64,000 nt of DNA from an uncultured Clostridia bacterium (lineage in GTDB: Bacteria; Bacillota; Clostridia; Lachnospirales; CAG-274). Shown piece by piece: positions 1-13,246 of the stretch. The stretch lies in contig CANRHR010000001.1 in assembly GCA_947630475.1 (NCBI GenBank), positions 1 through 64,000 of the forward strand, in the 5' to 3' direction. How positions within the stretch are numbered: position 1 is the stretch's first letter; each line of letters opens with the position of its first letter. The notes beneath the pieces were generated by a model. It was not told the origin of the DNA. It did not search any database and was given only the letters and a program-made list of their open reading frames with translations. A program made the translations under genes and the position numbers.

Positions 1-529
1 GAAGTATCAGCCTTTCAAGCCAGCCCTCCGGAAGTATAACGTCAGTGTTGACAAGTACAACATCTTTATCGCTTAGCGCAAGAGCTTTATTTACTGACTG
101 TACAAAGCCAAGGTTTTCTTCATTATTTATGAATGTTATATGAGGGTTTTGTTTTATTTGCTTAATAAGAAAGGGCAGCACTCTCTCATCACTGCTATGG
201 TCATTTATGACAATGATCCTGTGGGGAATTTTTGTTTTTTCGATAGTCTTGAACAGATTCTCCAAAAAATTAAACCCATTATAGACAGGTACGATTATAT
301 CTATTTCATTTTCAAATATGTCGTTGGGTACGTCAGCGCCATTTGAAATATATTTAGCCTTAAATTCAGCAAATGAATAGTAATTATCATACTCTCTCTT
401 TTCTTCATTTCTCGCAAGAACAATCCTTATTTTGCCAAACGCACTTCTAATACCATAAATTTTAATGTGTTTGCATAGCTTTTTAAAGTTAGCATATTTA
501 CACATTTTTATAATTTTTCCAATCTGCAC
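1..529 (-). CDS. Family 2 glycosyltransferase, 3'-truncated by window edge
   Basis: Minus-strand reading frame, open to the left edge of the window. The translation has an N-terminal extension of about 70 residues, then IDIIVPVYNGFNFLENLF, which is the first strand of a GT-A fold, then INDHSSDE, and then VVLVNTDVILPEGWLERLI, which carries the metal/nucleotide-binding acidic region (NTD). Such enzymes transfer a sugar from an NDP-sugar to a growing surface glycan at the cytoplasmic face. I chose the GTG at 529 because a GGTGGTG ribosome binding site lies six bases upstream; an in-frame ATG at 505 has a much weaker site. It is divergent from the glycan genes on its right, so it belongs to a neighbouring transcription unit of the same surface-polysaccharide region. 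Donor and acceptor cannot be told. Confidence 0.85.
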   Translation of the reverse strand, partial: MQIGKIIKMCKYANFKKLCKHIKIYGIRSAFGKIRIVLARNEEKREYDNYYSFAEFKAKYISNGADVPNDIFENEIDIIVPVYNGFNFLENLFKTIEKTKIPHRIIVINDHSSDERVLPFLIKQIKQNPHITFINNEENLGFVQSVNKALALSDKDVVLVNTDVILPEGWLERLIL

Positions 530-1075
530 TTATATCACCACCGGCACATTCTTGCGTTTGTCTGCAGTTCATTATGTTTTACCATTTTTGTAATACATAT
601 TCATCAATCTTCAGAAATCACTATATTCATAATTTATAAACAGATATCTACTTTTAGAATGTGCTAATTATTTACCATAAACAAACTACTGTTACAATTA
701 AAATACATCATCAAAAAAACGGGTTTTTTCTTATTTCAAGAAGAATGTATGACCTAGTTCAATCCGAACGTATTTCCAACAAACATATGCATAAATACTA
801 ATGCAAGTATATCTCATGTCAATCAAAAAATCAAGTGTTATTTTTATGCTGGACACGTTAAGAAAGTTGTAAAATAAAATGACACAATAAAAATGATTTA
901 AAGTGAAATTTGTTATAAAACGTAAGTGGTCAAATTAGTATAATTAAAGGAAAATAGAACCGAGTTATACAAATTATATAATAAGAAGGGCAACATCTGA
1001 TTAGACCCAAACCTAAATTAAAATTATTAATTGGTAGAGTTTATTAATAATTTTATGAAATAAATGTGGCTTTAC
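530..1075. other. AT-rich intergenic region between divergent glycan operons
   Basis: No convincing coding frame was found on either strand in this stretch, which lies between the divergent glycosyltransferase on the left and the promoter at 1088 on the right. I looked for a promoter for the minus-strand gene and found none with two good hexamers. A short A7/T6 inverted run near 713-731 has too little GC to call a terminator. Confidence 0.5.
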
Positions 1076-1096
1076 TGACATTTTATATTGCAATTT
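1076..1096 (+). repeat. 21-bp exact repeat, copy 1
   Basis: A 21-base block starting TGACATTTTATATTG is identical at 5614-5634. Each copy lies just upstream of a glycan transcription unit, and in this copy it overlaps the -35 box of the promoter at 1088. It may be a shared regulator site or a recently duplicated promoter region. Confidence 0.8.
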
Positions 1097-1116
1097 AAAA
1101 AAATTTTTTGTATAAT
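1088..1116 (+). promoter_or_regulatory. Sigma-A promoter of glycan transcription unit
   Basis: TTGCAA (1088-1093), a 17-base spacer and TATAAT (1111-1116). Start of transcription is expected near 1123, giving a long leader of about 275 nt before the first gene at 1399. The leader contains two hairpins, described separately. Confidence 0.7.
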
Positions 1117-1176
1117 CGACACATACCATCTTTTGTAAGCAATAGTAAATAATGGTATGGTTAAGTCTGTAAAAAT

Positions 1177-1199
1177 TTGAGCAAAATGCTTTCGCTCAA
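1177..1199 (+). other. Leader hairpin TTGAGC/GCTCAA
   Basis: A six-base-pair stem (1177-1182 with 1194-1199) with an 11-nt loop in the untranslated leader of the glycan operon. It is not followed by a T run. It could be a recognition element in the nascent transcript, for example for a NusG-family antiterminator; that role is speculative. Confidence 0.4.
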
Positions 1200-1220
1200 G
1201 TAAAGTTGTTCATGCTGCCT

Positions 1221-1250
1221 AACCTTAGGATATGAAAGTTAAGGTTTTTT
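1221..1250 (+). terminator. Possible leader attenuator
   Basis: AACCTTA (1221-1227) pairs with TAAGGTT (1240-1246) and is followed directly by more T residues to 1250. The 7-bp, AT-rich stem is weak, but its position in a 275-nt leader ahead of a polysaccharide gene fits an intrinsic attenuator. Confidence 0.35.
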
Positions 1251-1398
1251 GCGGTGACTTTTGATTATAACGAAAAACATATTAACGAAGAGGGACGATA
1301 TTTCAACAGCTGCAACAAAAAATGTAAGGTGGGCAGTGTTTAGCCTGCGGCAATTGTGGATAATTTAATAATAAAAATAAAAAGAAAAGGAAAAAATT

Positions 1399-4365
1399 AT
1401 GATAGTTGAATCAAAAAAAGCAATAGACAAAAAAGTAGTATTTATGGCATCGGTATTGTCGCTGATGATTTTATATTTTGTGAACCCGTTTGCTCCTAAA
1501 TTTGTAACAGAATGGGACAGAACTTTTTGTCATTCTTATATGTCGGGGATTTCATTTGAAAGCCGAATTTCTCATTTTTACTTACTTCTTTTTGTTTTTG
1601 TGCCATTAACATTTGCCGTGTCATACGTTTTATACGATTTGTTGAATCAAATCAGAAGCAAATGTATGCCTTTGCTGTTTAGGATTAATGTTTTATTTTT
1701 GTTTCCTGTTGTTATGGGGTATTTGACAAGGTATATCGATAATGCAAATCAGCCGTACAATATGTCGACAAGTGCTTTTATTGTCATGTTGGTGTGTTTA
1801 AACATCTTGTTATTGGTTATAAGCTTTATTGATGTAAACTCTGAGTTTGATTTTTCCGATTATGCTCTTGCCGTTGCAGCTTATTTTGTAATGAGTGTGC
1901 TTTTTATTCTTATGTCGACGGTTGAAGAAGATGCGGCGATAAAATGTCTTGCCGGATTTGCAAAGGCTGCTGCTGCCGTTGTTGTTTATTCGTTTGTTGT
2001 GCTGAAGGTCAATTATGCAAGAAAATACAAAGCCTGTATAAAAAACATAATTTATATTTTGTTGTGGCTGCCTGTGGTGATGAGGGTAACTTTAGGCGTA
2101 ATATACTTTATGGTTGAAAATGGATTTGAAATAGAAATGTACCGCAGATATGTTTCAATATCTATGTTTTTGTTCGTTCTTTTGGCGATTTTGGCTGTTG
2201 TTGGGTTAAAAAAGAAAAATGTCAATTTGAATTTCAAGACATTTGGCTACATTGGAGCAATATTGGGTTTTTGCATAATTGGGTTCTTAAATTTATATTA
2301 TAAAAACTATGTGTGGAATCCCCAGCCGAATATGTTTTTTGAATGGGGAAATAATGCTGTGGGATATGATACATTTTTGCATGGAAAACTTCCGATTATT
2401 GATTATTTTTCTGCTCATGCCGGTGCCGATGTTTTTAAATGGCTGATTGACTGTTTTCTGCATAATGTACATGAAGATTCAAATGCAGGTGCATTTGTTG
2501 TCTATAACGGTGCATATTTGGAGAAATTTATTTCATATATACTTTTGTATTGTATAATTAAAAACTTTGTTGATAAAGATGATTTGATACTGGGTATATT
2601 ATTGATTCCATTTTCTTCATATTATTTTTTAATGATGACTCCTTGTTTGCTTTCAATTGCAGCTCTTATTGCAGTGATGAAAAAGCCGACAATAAAATGC
2701 ATCTTGCTCCATTGGATTGCTCTTTTGTTCAGCGCTGTTTACAGATATGACCATGGTATATACTTGGGTATGGGGGTTATATTCTCTTACATTTTTATTT
2801 GCTGCGTCAAGCGTGAATGGAAGAATTTAAGAAATTATATAATTTCCGGATTTGCTATTGGATGTTTTGTAACGGTGTTTGCTTTTGTATATGCCTCAAT
2901 GACGGATCTTGATTTAATATCGAGGATCAAGGAATGGCTCTCTTTGTCTGTAGGCAGTAACTCAACATGGGCAATGTATAACTTTGGCGATGCAACCAAG
3001 TTTACATTTCTTTTGGTATATTTTGTTATTCCTATAACAAATTTGGCAGTGCTTGTTATAACAGCTGCGAAATTTATAAAGACAAAACAAGAACCTGTTT
3101 TGGCTGCGATGATAATGGCATTTGATTTTGCATACTTTGGATTTATTCCAAGATCAATAGTTTCTCATAGCCTTATGGGTGGTATAACAGAAGTTCTGTT
3201 AAATTACATTCCATGGATACTGTCTTTATTTGTTGTATATGTTTTTACATTAAAGAAAGAAAATGGAAGCGCAGATATAAACAGAAATTTTTTTGCTTGG
3301 GCAATATCTCTTGGTATTGTTTTTATCACAGGCAGTTCTGTAATCAGACAGAGCAATATAGGTATGGACTCGATTTTGCCTGCTCAGGCTATGTCGGTAT
3401 CAAAGAATTTCATTTTAAAAAATAATGTAAAAGAAAATATAGGGCAAGAAAGAATTTCTTATACCGATGACATGAAGAATTTTTTGGATTCTTTCGAGAC
3501 AATTTTTGATTCGCTGCTCACAGATGACCAAACATTTTTAGATTTCACCAATATGACGCCACTTTATGTGTTTACAGGCAGGGAGAGACCTTTTTATGTA
3601 GGACAAAGCCCGAGTTCACTCACAGACCTTTATTCTCAACAGTGCTATCTTGACGAAGTGGAAGAGCATGATTGTCCTTTGGCGGTTTTGGGTACATCGG
3701 ATACAGATCATTTGCAGAGTATGTGGAATATACCTCATAATATCAGATATTATAAAATTGCCGAATATATATACGCTAAATATAGGCCTCTTGTTAACTT
3801 TAATGAGTTTTCTATATGGTGTGAAAAGGAGAATTATGATAAATACAGGCAGAAACTTGTTGAAATGAATTTGCCTAATGATATATATGCTCTTGTAGAT
3901 TACGGATACGATCAAACAGAAATCACATATGATCAAAACGGTGGTGAGCAATGTAACTATAAACCGTTCCATAAATTTGATTTAGCGGCTATTCCGTATA
4001 TTTGGGCAAATAGTGATAAATACGGTTCGGTAAATAATCCTGTTTTGGCAAAGCTTGATGAGGTAATTGACGATGTATTTGTTTTTGATGGTTCTCAGTC
4101 TGTGCTTACGGATAAAGGAAATTATGTTTTGTTGGAGTTCACGAATAATACTCAAGAAACAACTGTAGGCACGATTGCATTACAAGAAGTGTCAAATTTG
4201 GGGAAGAGATATGAATACAGTTTTAATATTTTTCCGGGAAAAAATAAATATATGATAAGGGCAAGTCAGGATTATTTTTGGAGTGCCTATAATATCAATA
4301 TGATCTCAATATCTCACGGTGACTCTGTGGAAACAGACAGTGTTGAAATTTTAGAGGGTGATTAA
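1399..4365 (+). CDS. Large polytopic membrane protein, GT-C glycosyltransferase-like
   Basis: 988 residues. Roughly the first 660 residues contain many hydrophobic segments (first at about residues 14-32, then repeated), interrupted near residue 300 by an acidic, aromatic-rich loop (FFEWGNNAVGYDTFLHGK). The last 300 residues are soluble and probably outside the cell. The C-terminal part contains TNMTPLYVFTGRERPFY, which resembles the extracytoplasmic domain of GT-C proteins that use polyprenyl-phosphate sugars. The most likely role is sugar addition to a glycan on the outer face of the membrane; this rests on fold-like features, not a diagnostic motif, so a different role in polysaccharide assembly is possible. 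RBS AAAGGAAAAA lies just upstream. It has its own promoter with a long leader and is closed by a terminator at 4377. Confidence 0.6.
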   Translation: MIVESKKAIDKKVVFMASVLSLMILYFVNPFAPKFVTEWDRTFCHSYMSGISFESRISHFYLLLFVFVPLTFAVSYVLYDLLNQIRSKCMPLLFRINVLFLFPVVMGYLTRYIDNANQPYNMSTSAFIVMLVCLNILLLVISFIDVNSEFDFSDYALAVAAYFVMSVLFILMSTVEEDAAIKCLAGFAKAAAAVVVYSFVVLKVNYARKYKACIKNIIYILLWLPVVMRVTLGVIYFMVENGFEIEMYRRYVSISMFLFVLLAILAVVGLKKKNVNLNFKTFGYIGAILGFCIIGFLNLYYKNYVWNPQPNMFFEWGNNAVGYDTFLHGKLPIIDYFSAHAGADVFKWLIDCFLHNVHEDSNAGAFVVYNGAYLEKFISYILLYCIIKNFVDKDDLILGILLIPFSSYYFLMMTPCLLSIAALIAVMKKPTIKCILLHWIALLFSAVYRYDHGIYLGMGVIFSYIFICCVKREWKNLRNYIISGFAIGCFVTVFAFVYASMTDLDLISRIKEWLSLSVGSNSTWAMYNFGDATKFTFLLVYFVIPITNLAVLVITAAKFIKTKQEPVLAAMIMAFDFAYFGFIPRSIVSHSLMGGITEVLLNYIPWILSLFVVYVFTLKKENGSADINRNFFAWAISLGIVFITGSSVIRQSNIGMDSILPAQAMSVSKNFILKNNVKENIGQERISYTDDMKNFLDSFETIFDSLLTDDQTFLDFTNMTPLYVFTGRERPFYVGQSPSSLTDLYSQQCYLDEVEEHDCPLAVLGTSDTDHLQSMWNIPHNIRYYKIAEYIYAKYRPLVNFNEFSIWCEKENYDKYRQKLVEMNLPNDIYALVDYGYDQTEITYDQNGGEQCNYKPFHKFDLAAIPYIWANSDKYGSVNNPVLAKLDEVIDDVFVFDGSQSVLTDKGNYVLLEFTNNTQETTVGTIALQEVSNLGKRYEYSFNIFPGKNKYMIRASQDYFWSAYNINMISISHGDSVETDSVEILEGD

Positions 4366-4376
4366 TGTTTTTGTCG

Positions 4377-4417
4377 GACCAAGGAGTAAACTTATAGAAG
4401 GTTTTTCCTTGGTCTTT
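4377..4417 (+). terminator. Intrinsic terminator after the GT-C-like gene
   Basis: GACCAAGGA (4377-4385) pairs with TCCTTGGTC (4406-4414), followed by TTT. Nine perfect base pairs with a 20-nt loop. It separates the membrane protein gene from the downstream glycosyltransferase. Confidence 0.75.
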
Positions 4418-4516
4418 ATGCAACAATAATGTAAAATTAATAGTAATATATCAAATTGAATATAGGAGAATTTTTAGGAACAAAAAAGATTAAAAATAGT
4501 ATAAGGGGGAAATATT

Positions 4517-5503
4517 ACGAAAAAATCTACTATAACAGCTAATCCTTTGGTGTCCGTTGTGCTTGCGGTGTATAAGCCAGATAAAAAATGGTTTGGGGAG
4601 CTTTTGGACTCACTTAATGAGCAAAGCTACAAAAATACAGAATTGCTTATCTGGGACGACTGTCCGGATGAGCCTGCCGATGAGGAATTTATAAAAAACC
4701 ATACAAGCTCCCTTAACTCTAAATTATTTAGAGGGGACAAAAACAAAGGTTCGACATACGCTTTCCAAAGGCTTACAGAGCTTAGCAGCGGTGAGCTTAT
4801 ATCCTACTGCGACCAAGATGACATATGGAACAAAGATAAAATAGAAATTATGGTAAATGCCTTTAAAGAAAGCGGCGCAGACCTTGTTTATTCCGATCTG
4901 TGCGTAATAGACGGCGAGGGAAAGCCGGTATACGACAGCTACACAAAGGTATCAAAGAGGCAAAGGTTTTTAGAGGGGCGAGGTCTTTTTGAAAAACTTT
5001 GCAGCAGGAACGTAATAGTCGGCTGTGCGATGATGGTAAAAAGTGAAGTTGTTAAGGCGGCTCTTCCCTTTGAGCCAAGCTTTGTTCATGACCACTGGAT
5101 AGGGCTTTACACTGCGTCTGTAGGTGATATTTACGCTGTCAAGATCCCGCTTATAAAATACAGGATACACGGGAGAAATCAAACGGGTGTACTTAAGGGA
5201 GTGGAAACAAAGTCAGATTATTACAAAAAACGTGTAATGAGCTTTTATGAGCGTTCCATTGCCGTTAAGAAACGATTTGGGAAAAGCGCAGATGCAGATG
5301 TAAAAAAAGGGGCATATGAGCTTTATGAGCTTGCGCTTGCAAGAAAGGAATACAGCGAAAGCTTTAGCCTTAATAACCTTAGCAAAATAATAAAATACAG
5401 AAAATTCAATCCAAGTACAGCATTATTTGAAATATTTTTGCCCTTTATGCCTGAATTTGTATTTAAGCAGGCTGTAAAAATAATAAAAAAAGGAATTATA
5501 TAG
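4517..5503 (+). CDS. Family 2 glycosyltransferase (rhamnosyltransferase-like), start codon unusual
   Basis: About 320 residues with a GT-A domain: VSVVLAVYKPDKKWF, DDCPDEP, and the donor-site motif CDQDDIWNKDK typical of rhamnosyltransferase-like GT2 enzymes. It should transfer a deoxyhexose or similar sugar to a lipid-linked glycan in the cytoplasm. The first standard start (TTG at 4547) leaves no room for the N-terminal strand and has no ribosome binding site. The strong AAGGGGG at 4503-4509 sits seven bases before ACG at 4517, giving (M)KKSTITANPLVSVV. So either ACG is used as a start or an ATG has mutated. The gene follows a terminator and ends 237 bases before the acylation cassette. Family is secure; start is not. 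Confidence 0.8.
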   Translation, partial: TKKSTITANPLVSVVLAVYKPDKKWFGELLDSLNEQSYKNTELLIWDDCPDEPADEEFIKNHTSSLNSKLFRGDKNKGSTYAFQRLTELSSGELISYCDQDDIWNKDKIEIMVNAFKESGADLVYSDLCVIDGEGKPVYDSYTKVSKRQRFLEGRGLFEKLCSRNVIVGCAMMVKSEVVKAALPFEPSFVHDHWIGLYTASVGDIYAVKIPLIKYRIHGRNQTGVLKGVETKSDYYKKRVMSFYERSIAVKKRFGKSADADVKKGAYELYELALARKEYSESFSLNNLSKIIKYRKFNPSTALFEIFLPFMPEFVFKQAVKIIKKGII

Positions 5504-5613
5504 ACATAAGGCTGCACAAATTTATTTAGGATTGGATAAATATCCGAGTAAAAACTTAACTGGTTTTCTTCTTATAAAGCAGTGCTTTTGCTAAATTTTC
5601 CCCATAATTTTAT

Positions 5614-5634
5614 TGACATTTTATATTGCAATTT
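5614..5634 (+). repeat. 21-bp exact repeat, copy 2
   Basis: Identical to 1076-1096. Here the block starts just upstream of the promoter driving the acylation cassette, with TTGACA at its left end. The surrounding bases do not match beyond the block. Confidence 0.8.
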
Positions 5635-5649
5635 TCATACAATTTTGAT

Positions 5650-5679
5650 TTGATATTAGCATATTGGATATGGTATAAT
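5650..5679 (+). promoter_or_regulatory. Sigma-A promoter of the acylation cassette
   Basis: TTGATA (5650-5655), an 18-base spacer and TATAAT (5674-5679). An alternative upstream pair is TTGACA with TACAAT at a poor 19-base spacing. Transcription from here would start near 5686 and give a leader of about 55 nt with RBS AAAGGAG at about 5705. Confidence 0.6.
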
Positions 5680-5740
5680 GATATAAAATTGGTGTAATGT
5701 TGAAGAAAGGAGACACAGTTGGACTGTGTAAGTGTGAGAT

Positions 5741-7210
5741 ATGGCTTTTACATCTCTTGAGTTTTTGTTTGTATTTTTCCCTATAGCTATAGTTGGGTAT
5801 TATTTGATTAACAATAAACTTAGAAACATATTTTTACTTTTGGTTTCTCTTATATATTATGCGATAGGGCAGCTTGATATGCTTTGGCTGCTTACGGGAA
5901 GTGTTGTTGTTAATTATCTGATGGGGCTTTTAATAGGCTCTTTTGAAAATAACAATGTATTTAAGAAAATATTACTGTATGCTGTTATTATTTTTAATTT
6001 TGGCATACTTTATTATTATAAGTATTTTCTTTTCTCTATTGATACCTTTAATTCTGTTTTTGGCACTAATTTTACCTATGCAAAAAATATAATTTTGCCG
6101 CTGGGTGTTTCTTTTTATACATTCAGAACAGTTTCTTATTGTTTGGATGTGTATTGGAAAACAGTAAAACCTCAAAAGAATATAATAGATGTAGCTCTTT
6201 ATATTACTTTCTTTCCTCAGGTTATAATGGGACCTATCAGCAAATATAACGACTTTAAATCGAATTTGGCAGAAAGAGCATTTGATTTTGACAATTTTTT
6301 GCTTGGATTTAAGAGGATAATTATAGGACTTGCGAAAAAGCTTATTATTGCCGATACAATAGGTTCGGTTGTGGATAAAGTATTTGCTATGGAAACAACT
6401 GAGAGGAGCGTTGTTCTGGCTTGGCTTGGAATTTTAGGCTATATTATTCAACTTTACTATGACTTTTCGGGATATTCCGATATAGCTATAGGTATTGGAA
6501 ACCTTATAGGTTTTAAAACAGATGAAAATTTCAACTATCCCTATATATCAAAAACAGTAACCGAATATTGGTCACGTTGGCATATAACATTGGGAACATG
6601 GTTAAAAAATTATTTATACACACCTATATTTAGATCTTGCATGGATAAAGGAATGACTAAATTCCGCTGTGATACTCTTGCATTGTTGGGTGTGTGGCTT
6701 TTTGCGGGCATATGGCATGGAGTAGGCTGGAACTACCTTGTTTATGGTCTTTACTATTTTGCCTTTATTGTTTTTGAGAGGATTTGTGAAGACATAAAAA
6801 AGAAAAAACGAAAAAAAATGGGTATAAAAAAACAACCTAAAACTATTCCTCAGCTTATAAGAGCTCATGTTTATTTTTTTGTTGCTCTTATTTTCGGACA
6901 ACTTCTTTTTAGAAGTGATTCAATGACAAGCTTTTGGTTATATTTTGGCAATATGTTTGGGATTGGCGCAAAAAGCTTGTGTGATAAAGTGACATTGTAT
7001 TTTTGGAAACAAATTGCTGTTGTGTTTATTGTAGGTGTTATTTTCAGCTTTCCAGTTGTTGATGTTATAAGGCAGAGAGTGTTAAAACTTAATGGCGGAG
7101 AGATTATAAAAGGAGTTGTTTCTCCAGTTATATATGGATTGATGTTGATTGTTGCAATATCATTTGCGTTTTCCGGTTCATATCGAGGGTTTATTTATTT
7201 TCAATTTTAG
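5741..7210 (+). CDS. MBOAT-family O-acyltransferase (AlgI/DltB-like)
   Basis: 489 residues, a polytopic membrane protein with about ten hydrophobic segments. It has MBOAT hallmarks: YWSRWHITLGTWLKNYLY and the conserved histidine in FAGIWHGVGWNYL (His about residue 326, close to the catalytic His position of AlgI). MBOAT proteins of this branch move an acyl group from a cytoplasmic carrier through a membrane pore to an extracytoplasmic glycan, as in alginate acetylation and teichoic acid D-alanylation. The next gene encodes the usual secreted partner, and a carrier protein is encoded three genes on, so the donor is probably acyl-ACP and not acetyl-CoA. It is the first gene of a tightly spaced operon. 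Confidence 0.92.
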   Translation: MAFTSLEFLFVFFPIAIVGYYLINNKLRNIFLLLVSLIYYAIGQLDMLWLLTGSVVVNYLMGLLIGSFENNNVFKKILLYAVIIFNFGILYYYKYFLFSIDTFNSVFGTNFTYAKNIILPLGVSFYTFRTVSYCLDVYWKTVKPQKNIIDVALYITFFPQVIMGPISKYNDFKSNLAERAFDFDNFLLGFKRIIIGLAKKLIIADTIGSVVDKVFAMETTERSVVLAWLGILGYIIQLYYDFSGYSDIAIGIGNLIGFKTDENFNYPYISKTVTEYWSRWHITLGTWLKNYLYTPIFRSCMDKGMTKFRCDTLALLGVWLFAGIWHGVGWNYLVYGLYYFAFIVFERICEDIKKKKRKKMGIKKQPKTIPQLIRAHVYFFVALIFGQLLFRSDSMTSFWLYFGNMFGIGAKSLCDKVTLYFWKQIAVVFIVGVIFSFPVVDVIRQRVLKLNGGEIIKGVVSPVIYGLMLIVAISFAFSGSYRGFIYFQF

Positions 7211-7227
7211 AAAGGGTTTGATGGAAA

Positions 7228-8706
7228 ATGAAGGGCATATTTAAAATAAAGCATATTCCGGAGATTATTATTGCAGCCGAATTGTGCCTTGCCATATTGC
7301 TTCCACTGTTTAATTTCAACTTTGATCAAAATAAAATTTCTGCACAAGAAAACAGAGCAGTGGCTAAAATACCGAAATTGTTTGATGAAAATATGTCATT
7401 GAACAAAAATCTTAGAGGTGATGCAGGTATGTGGTTTGAGGATAACCTTGGGCTCAGAGATTATTTTTTAAGGCTGAATGGTGTAATAAATTATAATCTC
7501 TTTAACAGATCTCCTGTTGATAAGGTCGAATTGGGCAAAGATGATTGGCTTTTTTACAGTGCCGAAAACAATATGGAGCTTGTAGATGGTAATTATCCGG
7601 ATTTTGATGAAAAGGCTCTCGAATTTTATTGCAACAAGCAAATTGCAACAAAGGATAGACTTGCAAAGCAGGGAATAGATTACATACTTGTTTTGCCGCC
7701 AAGCAAGGTGAGTATATATCCGGAATATATTGCCCATGGCGATTACAAGGTACAGAGAACGGCTGCGGATATTTTTGCCGACTATATTCAACAACATTCC
7801 GATATTAAGGTTGTTAGGCTTAAAGATGTTATTTTGCAAGAAAAAGCAAAAACCGATGATCTTTTGTTTTTTAAAACAGATACACATTGGACACCAAAGG
7901 GAAAATATGTGGCATATAAAGAAATTATTAAAAATATGGTTGATTGGGGATTGGCAGACAAGGATCATTTACAGCCCGAGTTTTATGAAGATAAAGGATA
8001 TTCCGGAGATCTTGCGGGAATGTTGGGTGCAGTTCAGATGACGGCAGAAAGAGATTTGCTGAAAGAAGATTATATAAACTGGAAATTTAAAGATCCGAAA
8101 GCGTATGAGCTTAAAAGTGGACCACGTTATGACGAAATGCTTGGTTTGGCGCAGATACAAGGGCTTCCTGCTGAAAAATGTAATTTTTTTATAAATGATT
8201 GTGTTAAAGAAAACAAGGTTCTTATTTATGGAGATTCCATGATTGGATCTCATCTGCTTTCGGCATTTGCAGAAGATTTTTCACAGTTAACTTTTATGTG
8301 GACATATGAATTTAATCAGCAAGTGATTGATGGCCTTAAACCTAATACAGTGATCCTTGATGTGTCGGAAAGAGGATTAAGTCAATATATGAAAACATGG
8401 AACGATGTGTATCTTGCATCAGATACACACATAGATACTTCCAAAAAGACACTTGAAGTTTATTACTATGACGGCGGAGAATATGATAGTATGTATGCGC
8501 CTACATGGAGTGAAGAAAACGATCAAGATGATCTTGTATGGTACGAAATGAAACGAATTGATGCAAACACATGGTATGTTTGTGTTGATTTGAATGAGCA
8601 TAGATCATGCGGTAAATACTATACTCATTTTTATAACGGACCAAACGGTGTGGGAGGTTATGTGAGCGGTATAGGCTATAATGTAGAGGGTGTTAAATTT
8701 GATTAA
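7228..8706 (+). CDS. AlgX/AlgJ-like DHHW-family acetyl/acyl-transfer protein
   Basis: 492 residues. An N-terminal hydrophobic segment (about residues 12-29) acts as a membrane anchor or signal. The SGNH-like domain contains FKTDTHWTPKGKYVAY (the DHHW motif, Asp218/His220 by my count) and YGDSMIGSHL with the GDS serine near residue 335. In alginate and related systems such proteins receive the acyl group from the MBOAT partner and place it on the polysaccharide; DltD plays the same role for teichoic acids. The last 90 residues, rich in Trp, Tyr and Asp, look like an extra glycan-binding module. Spacing to the MBOAT gene is 17 bases, so the two are co-transcribed. Confidence 0.88.
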   Translation: MKGIFKIKHIPEIIIAAELCLAILLPLFNFNFDQNKISAQENRAVAKIPKLFDENMSLNKNLRGDAGMWFEDNLGLRDYFLRLNGVINYNLFNRSPVDKVELGKDDWLFYSAENNMELVDGNYPDFDEKALEFYCNKQIATKDRLAKQGIDYILVLPPSKVSIYPEYIAHGDYKVQRTAADIFADYIQQHSDIKVVRLKDVILQEKAKTDDLLFFKTDTHWTPKGKYVAYKEIIKNMVDWGLADKDHLQPEFYEDKGYSGDLAGMLGAVQMTAERDLLKEDYINWKFKDPKAYELKSGPRYDEMLGLAQIQGLPAEKCNFFINDCVKENKVLIYGDSMIGSHLLSAFAEDFSQLTFMWTYEFNQQVIDGLKPNTVILDVSERGLSQYMKTWNDVYLASDTHIDTSKKTLEVYYYDGGEYDSMYAPTWSEENDQDDLVWYEMKRIDANTWYVCVDLNEHRSCGKYYTHFYNGPNGVGGYVSGIGYNVEGVKFD

Positions 8707-8718
8707 GGAGAGATAAAT

Positions 8719-10443
8719 ATGTATTCTTTTAAGGAATTGAAAAAAGCTGCAAAGCTCTCTGTAGCTGCAAAGGAAATGAAGCTTGCTGTGGTTGGTAACT
8801 GTGCAACGCAATTTTTTTCAAAATCGATACAAGGCTATGCAAAGCTTTTAGGAATGAACTTGAATGTTTATGATACGGATTACAATCAAATAGATGTTCA
8901 GCTGCTTGATCAAAACTCGGAGGTGTATCGATTTTCACCCGATAATATCCTTATATGGCTTGCAACAGATAAACTTTATGAAGAATTTTTAGATATGGAG
9001 CTTCAAGCAAGAGAAAGTTTTGCACAGGGAGTAATTGACAAACTCAATTTTTGGTGGGATCTTGTTGAAAAAAATTCAAAAGCAAGAATTATTCAGCCGA
9101 ACTTTACGGAAATTGACGATAAAGCACTTGGAAGCTACTCATGTAAAGTTGAAACGTCATTTATATATCAAATCAGAAAGCTGAACTTTCTTCTTCAAAA
9201 TGAAATAATCAAAAGAAAATCGGTTTATCCCGTTGATTTTCTTGCGGTGCAAATTCGCCAAGGGCTTAATTTATTTTATGATCCATCATTGTATTACAAT
9301 GCAAAAATGACTATATCCATGGAAAGCCTGCCATGGATTGCGAAGTCGGTTGTTGACGTTCTATCAGCAATGAACGGCAAAATTAAAAAATGTATTATTT
9401 TGGATTTGGACAACACCCTTTGGGGCGGGGTTATTGGCGATGACGGCATGGGTGGCATACAAATTGGAGAGCTTGGCGCAGGTCATGCCTTTGCGGATTT
9501 TCAGAGATGGCTCAAGCAGCTTAAAGAATACGGTATAATTTTAGCTGTTTGCAGCAAGAACAATGAAGACACAGCGAAAGAGCCTTTTGAAAGCCATGAA
9601 GAAATGATATTGAGATTATCCGATATTTCGATTTTTGTTGCAAATTGGCAGGACAAAGCATCAAATATAAAAATGATACAAGAAAGCTTGAATATCGGTA
9701 TGGATTCCATTGTTTTTGTTGACGACAATCCTTTTGAAAGAAATCTTGTAAAGACAATAATTCCCGACATAGAAGTACCAGAACTGCCGGAAGATCCTGC
9801 GTTGTATTTGGATTATCTTCAAAGCAAGAATTATTTTGAAACAGCATCTTATATAGGTAAAGGCTCTGACAGGACCGAGCTTTACAGAGCAGAGTTTGAA
9901 AGAAAAAAACTTCAAATGCAGTTTGGCTCTATCGATGATTATTTGATAAGCCTTGATATGATCGGAGAGGCAAAACCTTTTGAACCTGTAAGGTTTGCAA
10001 GAATTGCACAGCTTACCCAAAGGTCAAATCAATTTAACTTAAGAACGGTTAGATACACCGAGGACGAAATCGAAAGAGTTGCAAACGATGATCATTATCT
10101 TACTCTTTATTACACATTGAAAGATAAGTTTGGCGATCATGGGTTGGTATCAGTGGTGATAATGGAAAAAATCTCCGATAAAGAGCTTTTTGTTGACACA
10201 TGGCTTATGAGCTGTCGTGTGCTTAAGAGAGGTATGGAGGAATTTATTGTCAACAAAATGATTGAAACGGCAAAGAGTAATGGGTTTGAACAGGTGATAG
10301 GTGAATATATCCCAACGGCAAAAAATGCTATGGTTAAGGATATATATAAGACAATGGGCTTTGAGCAAACAGACGAAAACAAGTATTGTATCGATGTTGA
10401 CAGCTATAAGCCCCAAAATAATTATATTAAGGAGGAAGAATAA
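8719..10443 (+). CDS. FkbH-like protein (HAD subfamily IIIC, glyceryl-ACP synthase type)
   Basis: 574 residues. The N-terminal 200 residues form a nucleoside/SGNH-like region (VVGNCATQFF). A HAD domain starts with ILDLDNTLWGGVIGDDG at about residues 228-244 and continues with CSKNNEDTAKEPF and VFVDDNPFERNLV. A GNAT-like domain occupies about residues 430-560. FkbH proteins take 1,3-bisphosphoglycerate, remove the phosphate and load D-glycerate onto an acyl carrier protein. The immediate neighbour is an ACP, one base after the stop, which supports that reaction. FkbH is best known from polyketide starter and extender synthesis; here there is no polyketide synthase, and the partners are polysaccharide O-acyltransferases. 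Family is certain, substrate inferred. Confidence 0.9.
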   Translation: MYSFKELKKAAKLSVAAKEMKLAVVGNCATQFFSKSIQGYAKLLGMNLNVYDTDYNQIDVQLLDQNSEVYRFSPDNILIWLATDKLYEEFLDMELQARESFAQGVIDKLNFWWDLVEKNSKARIIQPNFTEIDDKALGSYSCKVETSFIYQIRKLNFLLQNEIIKRKSVYPVDFLAVQIRQGLNLFYDPSLYYNAKMTISMESLPWIAKSVVDVLSAMNGKIKKCIILDLDNTLWGGVIGDDGMGGIQIGELGAGHAFADFQRWLKQLKEYGIILAVCSKNNEDTAKEPFESHEEMILRLSDISIFVANWQDKASNIKMIQESLNIGMDSIVFVDDNPFERNLVKTIIPDIEVPELPEDPALYLDYLQSKNYFETASYIGKGSDRTELYRAEFERKKLQMQFGSIDDYLISLDMIGEAKPFEPVRFARIAQLTQRSNQFNLRTVRYTEDEIERVANDDHYLTLYYTLKDKFGDHGLVSVVIMEKISDKELFVDTWLMSCRVLKRGMEEFIVNKMIETAKSNGFEQVIGEYIPTAKNAMVKDIYKTMGFEQTDENKYCIDVDSYKPQNNYIKEEE

Positions 10444-10444
10444 C

Positions 10445-10696
10445 ATGACAAAAGAAAGTGTACTTAAAGATGTTGAGGAAATAATGAGAGAGGAGTTTGA
10501 AGATGACGAACTTGAGATAACATATGAAACCACAGCAGCTGATGTGGAAGAATGGGATTCTCTTGCGCATTTGAGCCTTATTCATGAAATAGAGGCAAAA
10601 TTTAAGATCAAATTTACAATGGGAGAAATACAAGATTCCAAAAATGTCGGAGAACTTTTAGATGCTCTTCTTAAGCACGTTGAAGAAAAGAAATGA
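10445..10696 (+). CDS. Acyl carrier protein
   Basis: 83 residues, acidic. The phosphopantetheine attachment site is EEWDSLAHLSL with Ser39. I used the ATG at 10445, preceded by AAGGAGGAAGAA; longer in-frame extensions run back into the FkbH gene and are not credible. The protein would carry a thioester-bound acyl group made by the upstream FkbH protein and processed by the downstream dehydratase and reductase, in the position DltC has in D-alanylation. It is not the fatty-acid ACP, since no fab genes are nearby. Confidence 0.92.
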   Translation: MTKESVLKDVEEIMREEFEDDELEITYETTAADVEEWDSLAHLSLIHEIEAKFKIKFTMGEIQDSKNVGELLDALLKHVEEKK

Positions 10697-10724
10697 GCAA
10701 TATTTTTGATGGTAGGGATGCATT

Positions 10725-11162
10725 ATGAATAGATACACATTTGAAGATTGTCAAATTGGAAAAAAAGAATCTTTTGAAGCAGAAATAACCGAAGAAAAAA
10801 TGGAAGCTTTCCGCATGATATCCGGAGATGTAAACCCGCTGCACACAGATGAGGATTTTGCACAGAAAAAAGGATTTGAAACAAAGGTTGTATACGGATT
10901 GTTGACGGCATCTTTTTTCAGTACTCTGGTCGGAGTTTATTTGCCGGGTGAAAGATGCCTTATTCAGGAAACAAACTTTAAGTTTTTAAAACCCGTGCAC
11001 ATATTGTGCGGGGGGGGGGCGCTTGAAATAACAGGCGAAGTTGCAGATCGAGATGAAAGAACAAAGCAGCTTATGCTCAAAGTGCGTATAAGGCGAAAAT
11101 CCGATAATGCTTTGGTTGTGCGTGGAAAGATGACAGTTGGAGTATTGGAGGATAAGTTATGA
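10725..11162 (+). CDS. MaoC-like hotdog dehydratase with internal G10 tract
   Basis: 145 residues. Hotdog-fold (R)-specific hydratase/dehydratase with the catalytic pair in SGDVNPLHTDEDFA (Asp35 and His40). Enzymes of this family add or remove water at a hydroxyacyl thioester. In this cassette the likely substrate is the ACP-bound product of FkbH; water loss from glyceryl-ACP would give enol-pyruvyl-ACP. A run of ten G at 11010-11019 falls in the codons for Cys-Gly-Gly-Gly after KPVHIL, where relatives usually have a shorter turn. The tract is in frame here, but gain or loss of one G would truncate the protein. The stop overlaps the next start as ATGA. Confidence 0.85.
   Translation: MNRYTFEDCQIGKKESFEAEITEEKMEAFRMISGDVNPLHTDEDFAQKKGFETKVVYGLLTASFFSTLVGVYLPGERCLIQETNFKFLKPVHILCGGGALEITGEVADRDERTKQLMLKVRIRRKSDNALVVRGKMTVGVLEDKL
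11010..11019 (+). repeat. G10 homopolymer inside the MaoC gene
   Basis: Ten consecutive G residues in an AT-rich region, inside a coding frame. Tracts of this length are prone to slipped-strand mispairing and often mark phase-variable surface-structure genes. A sequencing or assembly miscall of length is also possible at such a tract. Confidence 0.85.
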
Positions 11163-11887
11163 ATGATAATGTTTTGTTGGTTATGGGGGCATCATCAGAA
11201 GTCGGAATAAAGTTGATTGAAAAAGTAAAGGATAATTACAGTTTGATCTATGCTCATTATGGCAGCAGTCGATCTGAAATTGAAAAGCTTGGAGATATTG
11301 GAGGAAAACTCCGTTTGATTCAAGCTGATTTAAGAGATAAGTCTGCGATAGATACTATAATAAATCAAATTCAGCAGGAAGATGTTGTGCCAAATCATGT
11401 TGTTCTTCTTCCTGCCCCCAAAGTGAAAAACGAGAGATTTACAAAAACAAATTGGGAATCGTTCGAGGATAATATAAATATTTCATTGCGATCGGCGGTG
11501 CTTGTTTTGCAGTGGGTGTTAAAAAGGCTGACAAAAGAAAAAAGAAGTGGCAGAGTTGTTTTTATGCTTTCTTCATACACTGTAAATATCCCCCCGAGAT
11601 TTATGTCATCTTATGTTTGCGTTAAGTATGCTATGCTTGGTCTGATGAAGGCACTTGCTACGGAATATGATAGTAAGAATATTACTGTCAACGGAGTATC
11701 ACCCGGTATGATGGAAACTAAATTTTTGATGAATATTTTCGATTCCGTTATTGAGGATAATGCACAAAAAAGTCCTTTTGGGAGAAATCTTTTTGTTGAT
11801 GAAGTGATACCCACAATACAATATCTGCTTTCCGACGGTGCACAAAGACTAACAGGGCAGAATATTGTTGTGACAGGTGGTATGTAA
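11159..11887 (+). CDS. SDR-family reductase (FabG-like)
   Basis: 242 residues with a Rossmann fold: LLVMGASSEVGIKLI as the nucleotide-binding turn, serine in FMLSSYTVN, and the catalytic YVCVK (Tyr152, Lys156). The C-terminal GQNIVVTGGM is typical of 3-oxoacyl-ACP reductases and relatives. It should reduce a keto group on an acyl thioester with NAD(P)H. After FkbH and a dehydratase the fitting substrate is pyruvyl-ACP, giving lactyl-ACP. It overlaps the MaoC gene by four bases and is the last gene before the terminator at 11931. An ordinary sugar or alcohol reductase function is the alternative. Confidence 0.85.
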   Translation: MNDNVLLVMGASSEVGIKLIEKVKDNYSLIYAHYGSSRSEIEKLGDIGGKLRLIQADLRDKSAIDTIINQIQQEDVVPNHVVLLPAPKVKNERFTKTNWESFEDNINISLRSAVLVLQWVLKRLTKEKRSGRVVFMLSSYTVNIPPRFMSSYVCVKYAMLGLMKALATEYDSKNITVNGVSPGMMETKFLMNIFDSVIEDNAQKSPFGRNLFVDEVIPTIQYLLSDGAQRLTGQNIVVTGGM

Positions 11888-11930
11888 TAATTTGTGCCCT
11901 TAATTGATCGTTTAATAAAAAAATCGGCAG

Positions 11931-11981
11931 TACTGCCTATATTTGTTGCAGGGTATATTGCAAAATATAGGCAGTATTTTT
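11931..11981 (+). terminator. Strong terminator closing the acylation cassette
   Basis: A 14-bp perfect stem, TACTGCCTATATTT (11931-11944) with its complement at 11963-11976, an 18-nt loop and TTTTT. The small open frame that overlaps it is not a gene. Confidence 0.85.
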
Positions 11982-12249
11982 ATGATGTTATTGCTAGGCA
12001 TTATTATTACGCTCAAAATATAAATATATTGATTATTCATGATATAACGATAGTTTTATATAAATTTATATGTTCTGTATTATAAATGAATACAAGAACA
12101 ATGTGGCAAATTATTACGAGAGCTGCAAGCACTTTCACTAAAACAAATGAGGAAGCTTCATCAAGCGTAAACAGAAAAATTGTTAATTGATAATAATGGA
12201 AAGACCAATAGTATAGAGAGAAATTTATATGATTTACAAAAAAATGTTA
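11982..12249. other. Intergenic sequence left of the IS remnant
   Basis: No supported gene. Short frames of 29 residues (plus, from 12101) and about 50 residues (minus) have no ribosome binding site or recognisable family. The stretch may be older insertion or deletion debris. Confidence 0.4.
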
Positions 12250-13144
12250 CTATAGTAATCCTATAAATTATTACCTTAAGCCAACAGCAGAAAACCAACC
12301 AAATGAAGCAAGAGAATTATTGGTAGAAGCATACGAAAAAATAGGTAATGCAAGAGAAGCTGCCGAATGTTTTGGAGTTGACACAAGTACGGTATATCGT
12401 CTGAATCGCCAAAAGAAAGCAGCCGGTTCAGTAAAGCTTAGAATAAATACTCAAGGAAGAAAACCGTTATTATCTGCAGAAGATTTGTCAAATATTGATA
12501 AAGTAATTCAAGAACAGTCTGATATAACAATAGATGAAATAATAGAAAAACTTGATCTGCATGCTGCAAATGAAACTGTTCACAAAGCAGTTATAAAAAT
12601 GGGATATGTTTATAAGAAAAAATCTCTTTATGCTTCGGAGCGTGAACGCTCCCGATGTGAAAAATAAAAGAAAAATATGGCTTGAAAATCTTCCCAATTA
12701 TGCAAAAGAAAAGCTTGTATTCATTGATGAAAGTGGAGTAAATACAAATATGACAAAAATTTACGGTCGTTCTATCGAAGGAACACGCTCTGTTGATAAA
12801 ACACCGTTAAATACACCTGCAAATACAACAATTCAACTCTAAATGATGGAGATATTATTGTTATGGACAATATGCGCTCTCATCATGTAAAAAAAGTTTC
12901 GGAAACAATAAACAATTTGGAAAAACATTTGACTTTACTGTATTTGCCTCCATATAGTCCGGATTTTGATCCTATTGAAATGATGTGGTCAAAAATAAAA
13001 TCTATTTTGCGTAAAATAAAAATAAGGGATGTTTCTATGCTTTTAGATACCATTAATACTGCTTTTTTAAAAATCACATTATTCGATTGCATTGGTTGGT
13101 TTTCTGCTGTTTGCTTGAGGTAATAATTTACAGGATTGCTATAG
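12250..13144 (+). mobile_element. Decayed IS630-family insertion sequence
   Basis: Bounded by terminal inverted repeats at 12250-12302 and 13092-13144 that match at 49 of 53 positions by my alignment. TATA occurs at both outer ends (12251-12254 and 13140-13143), fitting the TA target-site preference of IS630/Tc1 elements. The transposase inside is frameshifted and has lost its middle, so the element cannot move by itself. The well-kept ends could still be mobilised by a related transposase. It lies exactly between the accessory glycan region and the conserved nusB operon. Confidence 0.88.
12302..13123 (+). pseudogene. IS630-family transposase, broken
   Basis: Three pieces in different frames. 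The first (to 12667) has the helix-turn-helix region GNAREAAECFGVDTSTVYRL and ends by frameshift after YVYKKKSLYASERER. The second (about 12640-12842) has the first catalytic Asp in KLVFIDESGVNTNM. The third (about 12843-13123) has DGDIIVMDNMRSHH, with the second Asp, and LPPYSPDFDPIEMMWSKIK, with the catalytic Glu. The stretch between the first and second Asp is far too short compared with intact members, so a deletion of roughly 150-250 bp is likely near 12840. Not functional. Confidence 0.9.
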
Positions 13145-13246
13145 AGAAAAGTATGCAATCTGAAAGTATTTGTATGAAATCAGCAAAGAAGAAAAAATTA
13201 TATCTTTATAATAATAAATTTATTTTACATAACAAAAAATATAAGT

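Follow-up and report, generated by a model that had tools for sequence, protein, structure and literature searches.

The closest described relatives of the system reported here are the Dlt system for D-alanylation of teichoic acids (DltA, DltB, DltC, DltD and DltX), PatA/PatB for O-acetylation of peptidoglycan and AlgI/AlgJ/AlgX for acetylation of alginate. Pathways that pair a membrane-bound O-acyltransferase (MBOAT) with an SGNH protein have no carrier protein outside Dlt, and the FXYXXF motif serves as the acyl shuttle in DltX as well as at the C-terminus of PatA-type MBOATs, its tyrosine being auto-acetylated in PatA (PMC12148441). Meanwhile, the FkbH family is established as loading glyceryl groups onto an acyl carrier protein (ACP) (PMC7489565). 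We analysed 64,000 nucleotides (hereafter the window) from an uncultured Clostridia bacterium of the Lachnospirales (contig CANRHR010000001.1, positions 1 to 64,000), in which an operon at 5741-11887 combines an MBOAT-SGNH pair with FkbH, an ACP, a MaoC-type dehydratase and a short-chain dehydrogenase/reductase (SDR). The operon probably encodes an MBOAT-SGNH system that receives its acyl group from a carrier protein and attaches a three-carbon hydroxy acid to a surface glycan as an ester.

The nearest precedent is the dimethylglycerate of Campylobacter jejuni flagellin, which is N-linked di-O-methylglycerate (PMC3068675). Strain 12664, which carries the fkbH-domain gene cj1302 as a pseudogene, has no dimethylglycerate, although it differs in other genes too (PMC7099621).

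The operon and its proteins

The original prediction described six genes in one tight operon with no polyketide synthase (PKS), and both statements were borne out. Profile searches recovered, at the expected positions and on the plus strand, an MBOAT, an AlgX/DHHW-type SGNH protein, a long FkbH, an ACP, a MaoC protein and a FabG-like SDR (Table 1). Successive genes are separated by 17, 12, 1 and 28 bp, and the MaoC and SDR genes overlap by 4 bp. A motif scan of positions 1-13200 of the window found no ketosynthase, malonyl transferase or adenylation-domain (AMP-binding) motif, and a Pfam scan of the operon detected no FkbI-, FkbK- or FkbG-like gene. In sequence alignments, all six proteins keep every expected catalytic residue. 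The assembly (2.18 Mb, 99.6% complete) contains a single FkbH and a single PF01575 MaoC, both of them those of the operon, and four MBOATs.

The operon MBOAT matches DltB chains in the PDB (1e-28 to 1e-29). Its H281 and H326 are kept in 71 of 71 aligned sequences and Tyr486 in 65 of 72, and its C-terminus, FIYFQF, fits the FxYxxF acyl-shuttle motif, which is present in 58 of the 71 MBOATs examined. Some FkbH-linked MBOATs of about 420-475 aa lack this C-terminal motif (L049, L052, L054, L056 and L029); these may use a separate DltX-like peptide instead. The SGNH protein encoded directly downstream has an N-terminal hydrophobic anchor visible in its sequence, matches AlgJ and PatB1 in the PDB, and carries the catalytic residues D218 and H220 in an AlgJ-like TDTHW block and S337 in a GDS block (YGDSM). 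It is presumed to be a glycan O-acyltransferase. The pair thus shows what characterizes an MBOAT-SGNH envelope acyltransferase, namely the conserved histidine, the FxYxxF tyrosine and an adjacent exported SGNH protein with Ser, Asp and His, so that the hardware for transmembrane acyl transfer is complete, and it is predicted to transfer an acyl group to a glycan. A GBS_Bsp-like domain (PF08481; window 8488-8634) is fused to the SGNH protein close to its C-terminal end, possibly as a cell-wall or glycan-binding module.

The long FkbH has 3SLR as its structure match, and its AlphaFold2 model (mean pLDDT 91.6) shows a GNAT-like C-terminal fold. The HAD residues D229, D231, S279, K313, D335 and D336, together with the cysteine C499 of an SCR motif, are invariant or almost so among 146 aligned sequences. 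From its family, the protein is predicted to load a glyceryl group from 1,3-bisphosphoglycerate onto the ACP. The ACP keeps its DSL serine, as do 114 of 114 relatives, and its top hits in NCBIfam are generic acyl carrier proteins, not the DltC family.

The MaoC protein aligns with the R-hydratase 1IQ6 and has the R-hydratase active site D-x-N-P-x-H, with D35, N37 and H40 in 22 of 22 sequences; Y152 and K156 of the SDR are present in 24 of 24 sequences. We propose that the former would act as a glyceryl-ACP dehydratase and the latter as a 2-keto (pyruvyl-ACP) reductase.

Table 1. Positions of the operon genes and of features upstream of them in the window.
Feature	Position	Strand	Basis
MBOAT acyltransferase, 489 aa	5741..7210	+	PF03062 90.5 bits; TIGR04091 (DltB) 168 bits, under the 375-bit cut-off
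Membrane-anchored AlgX/DHHW-type SGNH protein	7228..8706	+	PF16822 72.5 bits; PF08481 43 bits
Long FkbH (FkbH_N, HAD and C-terminal GNAT-like domain)	8719..10443	+	PF21211 219 bits; TIGR01686 288 bits, cut-off 146.65
Acyl carrier protein	10445..10696	+	PF00550; starts 1 bp after FkbH
MaoC-type hot-dog dehydratase	10725..11162	+	PF01575 63 bits
FabG-like SDR	11159..11887	+	PF13561 116 bits; best NCBIfam YmfI/FabG
Family 2 glycosyltransferase (GT2), upstream of operon	4547..5503	+	PF00535 68 bits
Multi-membrane-span protein, 988 aa, upstream of operon	1399..4365	+	Hydrophobic N-terminal two thirds
Promoter-like site, TTGATA-18-TATAAT with extended -10 TG	5650..5679	+	11/12 consensus, top score of the region scanned; consensus match alone

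Recurrence of the FkbH-ACP-MBOAT arrangement

Scanning genomes with only the FkbH protein as query yielded 50 loci, in most of which FkbH, ACP and MBOAT genes stand in direct succession. The hosts with this arrangement include Lachnospiraceae, other Clostridia, Burkholderiales (Pandoraea and Paraburkholderia), Sphingomonadaceae, Acidobacteria and Magnetococcales. Among these, the Pandoraea loci place FkbH, ACP and MBOAT genes after a gene for an AlgX/DHHW-like protein, which is essentially a Dlt-like set with FkbH replacing DltA.

Genomes drawn evenly from the order (392) and from the phylum (399) contained 93 FkbH loci, 79 of which are long and not PKS-linked. Within 5 kb, an ACP occurs in 65 of these 79 loci and an MBOAT in 27; MaoC and SDR genes are found in 16 and 17, respectively. 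From MBOAT density (319 MBOATs in 76 genomes), only 0.6 loci with a nearby MBOAT were expected, and the linkage remains significant (P ~3e-12) even when this density is raised tenfold to allow for clustering. When all proteins of 100 aa or more encoded within 6 kb of FkbH were clustered across 137 loci, the top neighbour families were MBOAT (54), SDR (23) and MaoC (20), followed by sugar epimerases (19) and GT2 (17). The ranking of MBOAT, SDR and MaoC above sugar epimerases and GT2 argues against a general polysaccharide-locus effect, and a chance neighbourhood was rejected on this ranking and on the expected counts. The proposal that FkbH and the ACP replace DltA and DltC in feeding the MBOAT and SGNH proteins is well supported by this recurrent linkage and by the shuttle motif.

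A split transketolase pair lies between FkbH and ACP in one locus (L095:7554-9337) and directly before FkbH in another (L024:8188-9989). In some Lachnospirales, FkbH-ACP-MaoC-SDR sets occur in NeuB loci (L011 and L013). In addition, a fusion of an aminoglycoside-acetyltransferase-like protein with DUF4910-DUF2172, the latter of which we take to be of the Cj1295 type, adjoins an ACP-MaoC pair with no FkbH nearby in L160:7269-10040 and L161, and may be an N-acylation outlet. The NeuB-locus modules and the L160 pair point to two or more probable outlets for the FkbH-ACP module; the window operon probably carries the MBOAT outlet.

Linkage of MaoC and SDR to FkbH

In most MaoC loci the ACP, MaoC and SDR genes are contiguous, with gaps mostly of 2-90 bp, even where FkbH is 2 kb off. 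MaoC is rare in the 76 FkbH genomes, with 44 matches over the cut-off, yet 20 of these lie within 12 kb of FkbH against 0.4 expected. A profile of the cassette MaoC, run on the 392 genomes, separated 21 members scoring at least 181 bits from the next best MaoC at 141 bits. Cassette-type MaoC thus occurs in 21 of 392 genomes, all 21 of which have FkbH, compared with 73 of 392 overall. Since 15 of the 21 have FkbH nearby and the profile seed included most of these 15, the fair test is provided by the six non-seed MaoCs away from FkbH. These six stand in FkbH-bearing genomes and mostly adjoin an ACP.

Bryostatin-type loading, for which no source was found in the searchable literature, uses FkbH with a dehydratase and a ketoreductase to make a lactyl starter. 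FkbH, a carrier, a dehydratase and a ketoreductase are likewise found together in the operon, while an attached PKS is absent. Elsewhere, a 391-aa fusion of MaoC with SDR adjoins FkbH-ACP-PKS (L077), and a single PKS combines MaoC-like, FkbH and ketoreductase domains (L074). Both arrangements would be predicted if the FkbH product undergoes dehydration and ketoreduction. A motif scan of the non-PKS MaoC loci detected neither a ketosynthase nor a malonyl transferase in any of them.

Proposed route and alternative explanations

The gene linkage is strong; the chemical steps, the acyl group and the acceptor are inferred as follows. FkbH would take a glyceryl group from 1,3-bisphosphoglycerate, presumably via the invariant Cys499 after dephosphorylation by the HAD domain, and hand it to the ACP. 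MaoC would dehydrate glyceryl-ACP to 2-hydroxyacryloyl/pyruvyl-ACP, which the SDR would reduce to lactyl-ACP. The MBOAT could then pass the lactyl group to its own Tyr486 at the outer face of the membrane, from which the SGNH protein may take it to its own serine and on to the glycan built by the neighbouring glycosyltransferases. The loading step is supported by knowledge of the FkbH family, the shuttle by the identity of the motif and the lactyl step by chemistry together with gene linkage. Lactyl appears the somewhat probable acyl group, and glyceryl a rather unlikely one.

Several observations weigh against this route. Apart from Dlt, the MBOAT-SGNH pairs described so far draw on acyl-CoA (PMC12148441). 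Thirty-one of the 79 loci have no MBOAT, MaoC or SDR within 9.5 kb of FkbH-ACP, indicating that FkbH-ACP has other uses, and in three genomes (G303, G365 and G360) the ACP-MaoC pair stands beside other genes with FkbH elsewhere, so that MaoC may accept other acyl groups. In addition, the presence of MaoC-SDR is independent of MBOAT on the FkbH tree and is thus not specific to the MBOAT outlet. The lactyl-ACP step of the original prediction is plausible, with a contiguous module, kept residues and no ketosynthase nearby. In the genome search suggested with it, the MBOAT linkage recurred; MaoC-SDR accompanied the FkbH-ACP-MBOAT set in 8 survey loci and was missing in 18. From the commoner arrangement without MaoC-SDR, glyceryl is a probable substrate for the MBOATs in this group, and the glycan of the window organism might likewise receive unmodified D-glycerate (or pyruvate) by the same route, MaoC and SDR acting partly or on another ACP-bound substrate. 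We regard this as unlikely here, where MaoC-SDR sits in the same operon, from the ACP to the operon end, with complete catalytic residues; moreover, ACP-MaoC-SDR is a conserved contiguous unit and these loci contain no other acyl source.

The locus could also hold two functions, the MBOAT-SGNH pair O-acetylating from acetyl-CoA, the donor for PatA-type MBOATs (PMC12148441), and the FkbH-ACP-MaoC-SDR product N-acylating a cytoplasmic amino sugar. The FkbH-ACP-MaoC-SDR sets in NeuB loci would fit such a division, and the dimethylglyceroyl-pseudaminic acid of C. jejuni is a real precedent (PMC3068675, PMC7099621). However, MBOAT is the top FkbH neighbour across phyla, in many cases immediately following FkbH-ACP and away from nonulosonate loci, and neither a sugar N-acyltransferase nor a nonulosonate gene is present in the window cassette, which makes two separate functions distinctly improbable. 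Least of all do we expect MaoC, SDR and ACP to yield a fatty-acid-type group, for instance 3-hydroxybutyryl, or FkbH to feed a methoxymalonyl-type or cryptic polyketide. It is true that 3-hydroxyacyl and 3-oxoacyl thioesters are common substrates of MaoC and FabG-like SDRs, and that FkbH accompanies PKSs elsewhere (L069, L074 and L077). A polyketide or fatty-acid origin was nevertheless rejected, since neither the window region nor the non-PKS MaoC loci contain a ketosynthase or malonyl transferase, and the cassette has none of the Fkb partner genes sought.

Possible exchangeable acyl-tailoring modules

On an FkbH tree of 121 rows, the 21 MaoC carriers require 17 changes and the 60 MBOAT carriers 19. 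The former ratio indicates that FkbH loci have gained or lost the MaoC-SDR module on many occasions. MaoC-SDR was accordingly rejected as an MBOAT-specific partner, as it does not track MBOAT on this tree, and is read instead as an exchangeable tailoring module for the ACP cargo. Two loci, L083 and L090, align over ~19 kb at 85-93% DNA identity and differ after the ACP, where the first has MaoC-SDR (L083:6268-7485) and the second a VOC gene (L090:7006-7489). This swap suggests exchangeable acyl-tailoring modules. The best NCBIfam match of the VOC protein is methylmalonyl-CoA epimerase, at 58 bits and under the 115-bit cut-off; acting as an alpha-carbon epimerase, it would turn D- into L-glyceryl-ACP. 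VOC occurs in 25 and MaoC in 20 of 143 FkbH loci, and one locus has both, so that their mutual exclusion is a trend and not a strict rule. We tentatively suggest a modular acyl code, in which FkbH-loaded ACP would feed MBOAT-SGNH pairs across phyla and the module after the ACP would set the acyl group (none, D-glyceryl; VOC, L-glyceryl; MaoC-SDR, lactyl).

Gene neighbourhood

The promoter-like site ends 62 bp ahead of the MBOAT start. The GT2 upstream is probably a neighbour within a glycan locus, judging from its position. The 988-aa protein has no match to any Pfam or NCBIfam family; it may be a GT-C-type glycosyltransferase or a polymer enzyme. Directly 3' of the operon, an IS630-like transposase broken over three open reading frames (12320-13123) precedes a nusB-dxs housekeeping run, in which inspection of the open reading frames shows NusB-, XseA- and Dxs-like proteins. 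The window begins at the contig end, so further genes of the glycan locus may be missing.

Implications and comparison with known systems

The enzyme set is widespread, recurring in many distant bacteria. If the proposed route is correct, envelope polymers would be acylated with a three-carbon acid derived from glycolysis through a carrier route other than Dlt, with no ATP-dependent adenylation, and MBOAT-SGNH pairs with a fused tyrosine shuttle could take acyl-ACP. The route would also account for where glyceryl or lactyl groups of bacterial polysaccharides come from, and would tie an enzyme set of natural-product biosynthesis to surface antigen diversity in gut bacteria. Gellan carries L-glycerate, for which an FkbH-type source might be sought as a lead.

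None of the literature searched, with subscription papers and patents outside the search, describes an MBOAT or polysaccharide acylation supplied by FkbH. To this extent the novelty claimed by the original prediction holds, qualified by a weak link of FkbH to glycan glycerylation (PMC7099621). As described there, the di-O-methylglyceroyl-pseudaminic acid of C. jejuni flagellin resembles the proposed product in placing a glycerate unit on a surface glycan, with an FkbH-domain gene in the locus. The C. jejuni system differs in being N-linked, in its flagellin nonulosonate acceptor and in its Cj1295-type enzyme (PMC3068675), and no MBOAT is seen in the consulted passages of the two reports (PMC3068675, PMC7099621).

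Among FkbH pathways, the glycerate-use genes of the tetronate and methoxymalonyl type share FkbH and ACP with the operon, which has no FabH-like or PKS partner, dehydrogenases or methyltransferase and has MBOAT-SGNH as its outlet. The two dehydrogenases (FkbI and FkbK) and the O-methyltransferase (FkbG) of a methoxymalonyl-ACP pathway are absent from the operon. In bryostatin-type modules, as in the operon, a dehydratase and a ketoreductase follow the FkbH product; however, the operon enzymes are stand-alone, have no PKS, and their product is proposed to be destined for a glycan.

PatA/PatB and AlgI/AlgJ/AlgX have an MBOAT with C-terminal FxYxxF and an AlgX/AlgJ-like SGNH protein, as in the operon, whereas the operon donor appears to be FkbH-fed acyl-ACP and not acetyl-CoA. 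The description 'Dlt-like' is apt for the working principle: Dlt and the operon have in common a carrier-bound acyl group, outward transfer by an MBOAT, a tyrosine shuttle motif, SGNH-type transfer to a polymer and the four roles in one operon. It does not extend to membership. A true Dlt operon was rejected because the MBOAT falls short of the DltB cut-off (Table 1), DltA is absent from the operon and the carrier is not of the DltC family. Unlike in Dlt, the carrier would be loaded by FkbH instead of an adenylating enzyme, the acyl group appears to be tailored by MaoC and SDR, and the shuttle motif, which Dlt has on DltX, is fused to the MBOAT C-terminus. The operon would represent a second carrier-fed type of MBOAT-SGNH system besides Dlt, one whose MBOAT itself bears the shuttle motif, as PatA does.

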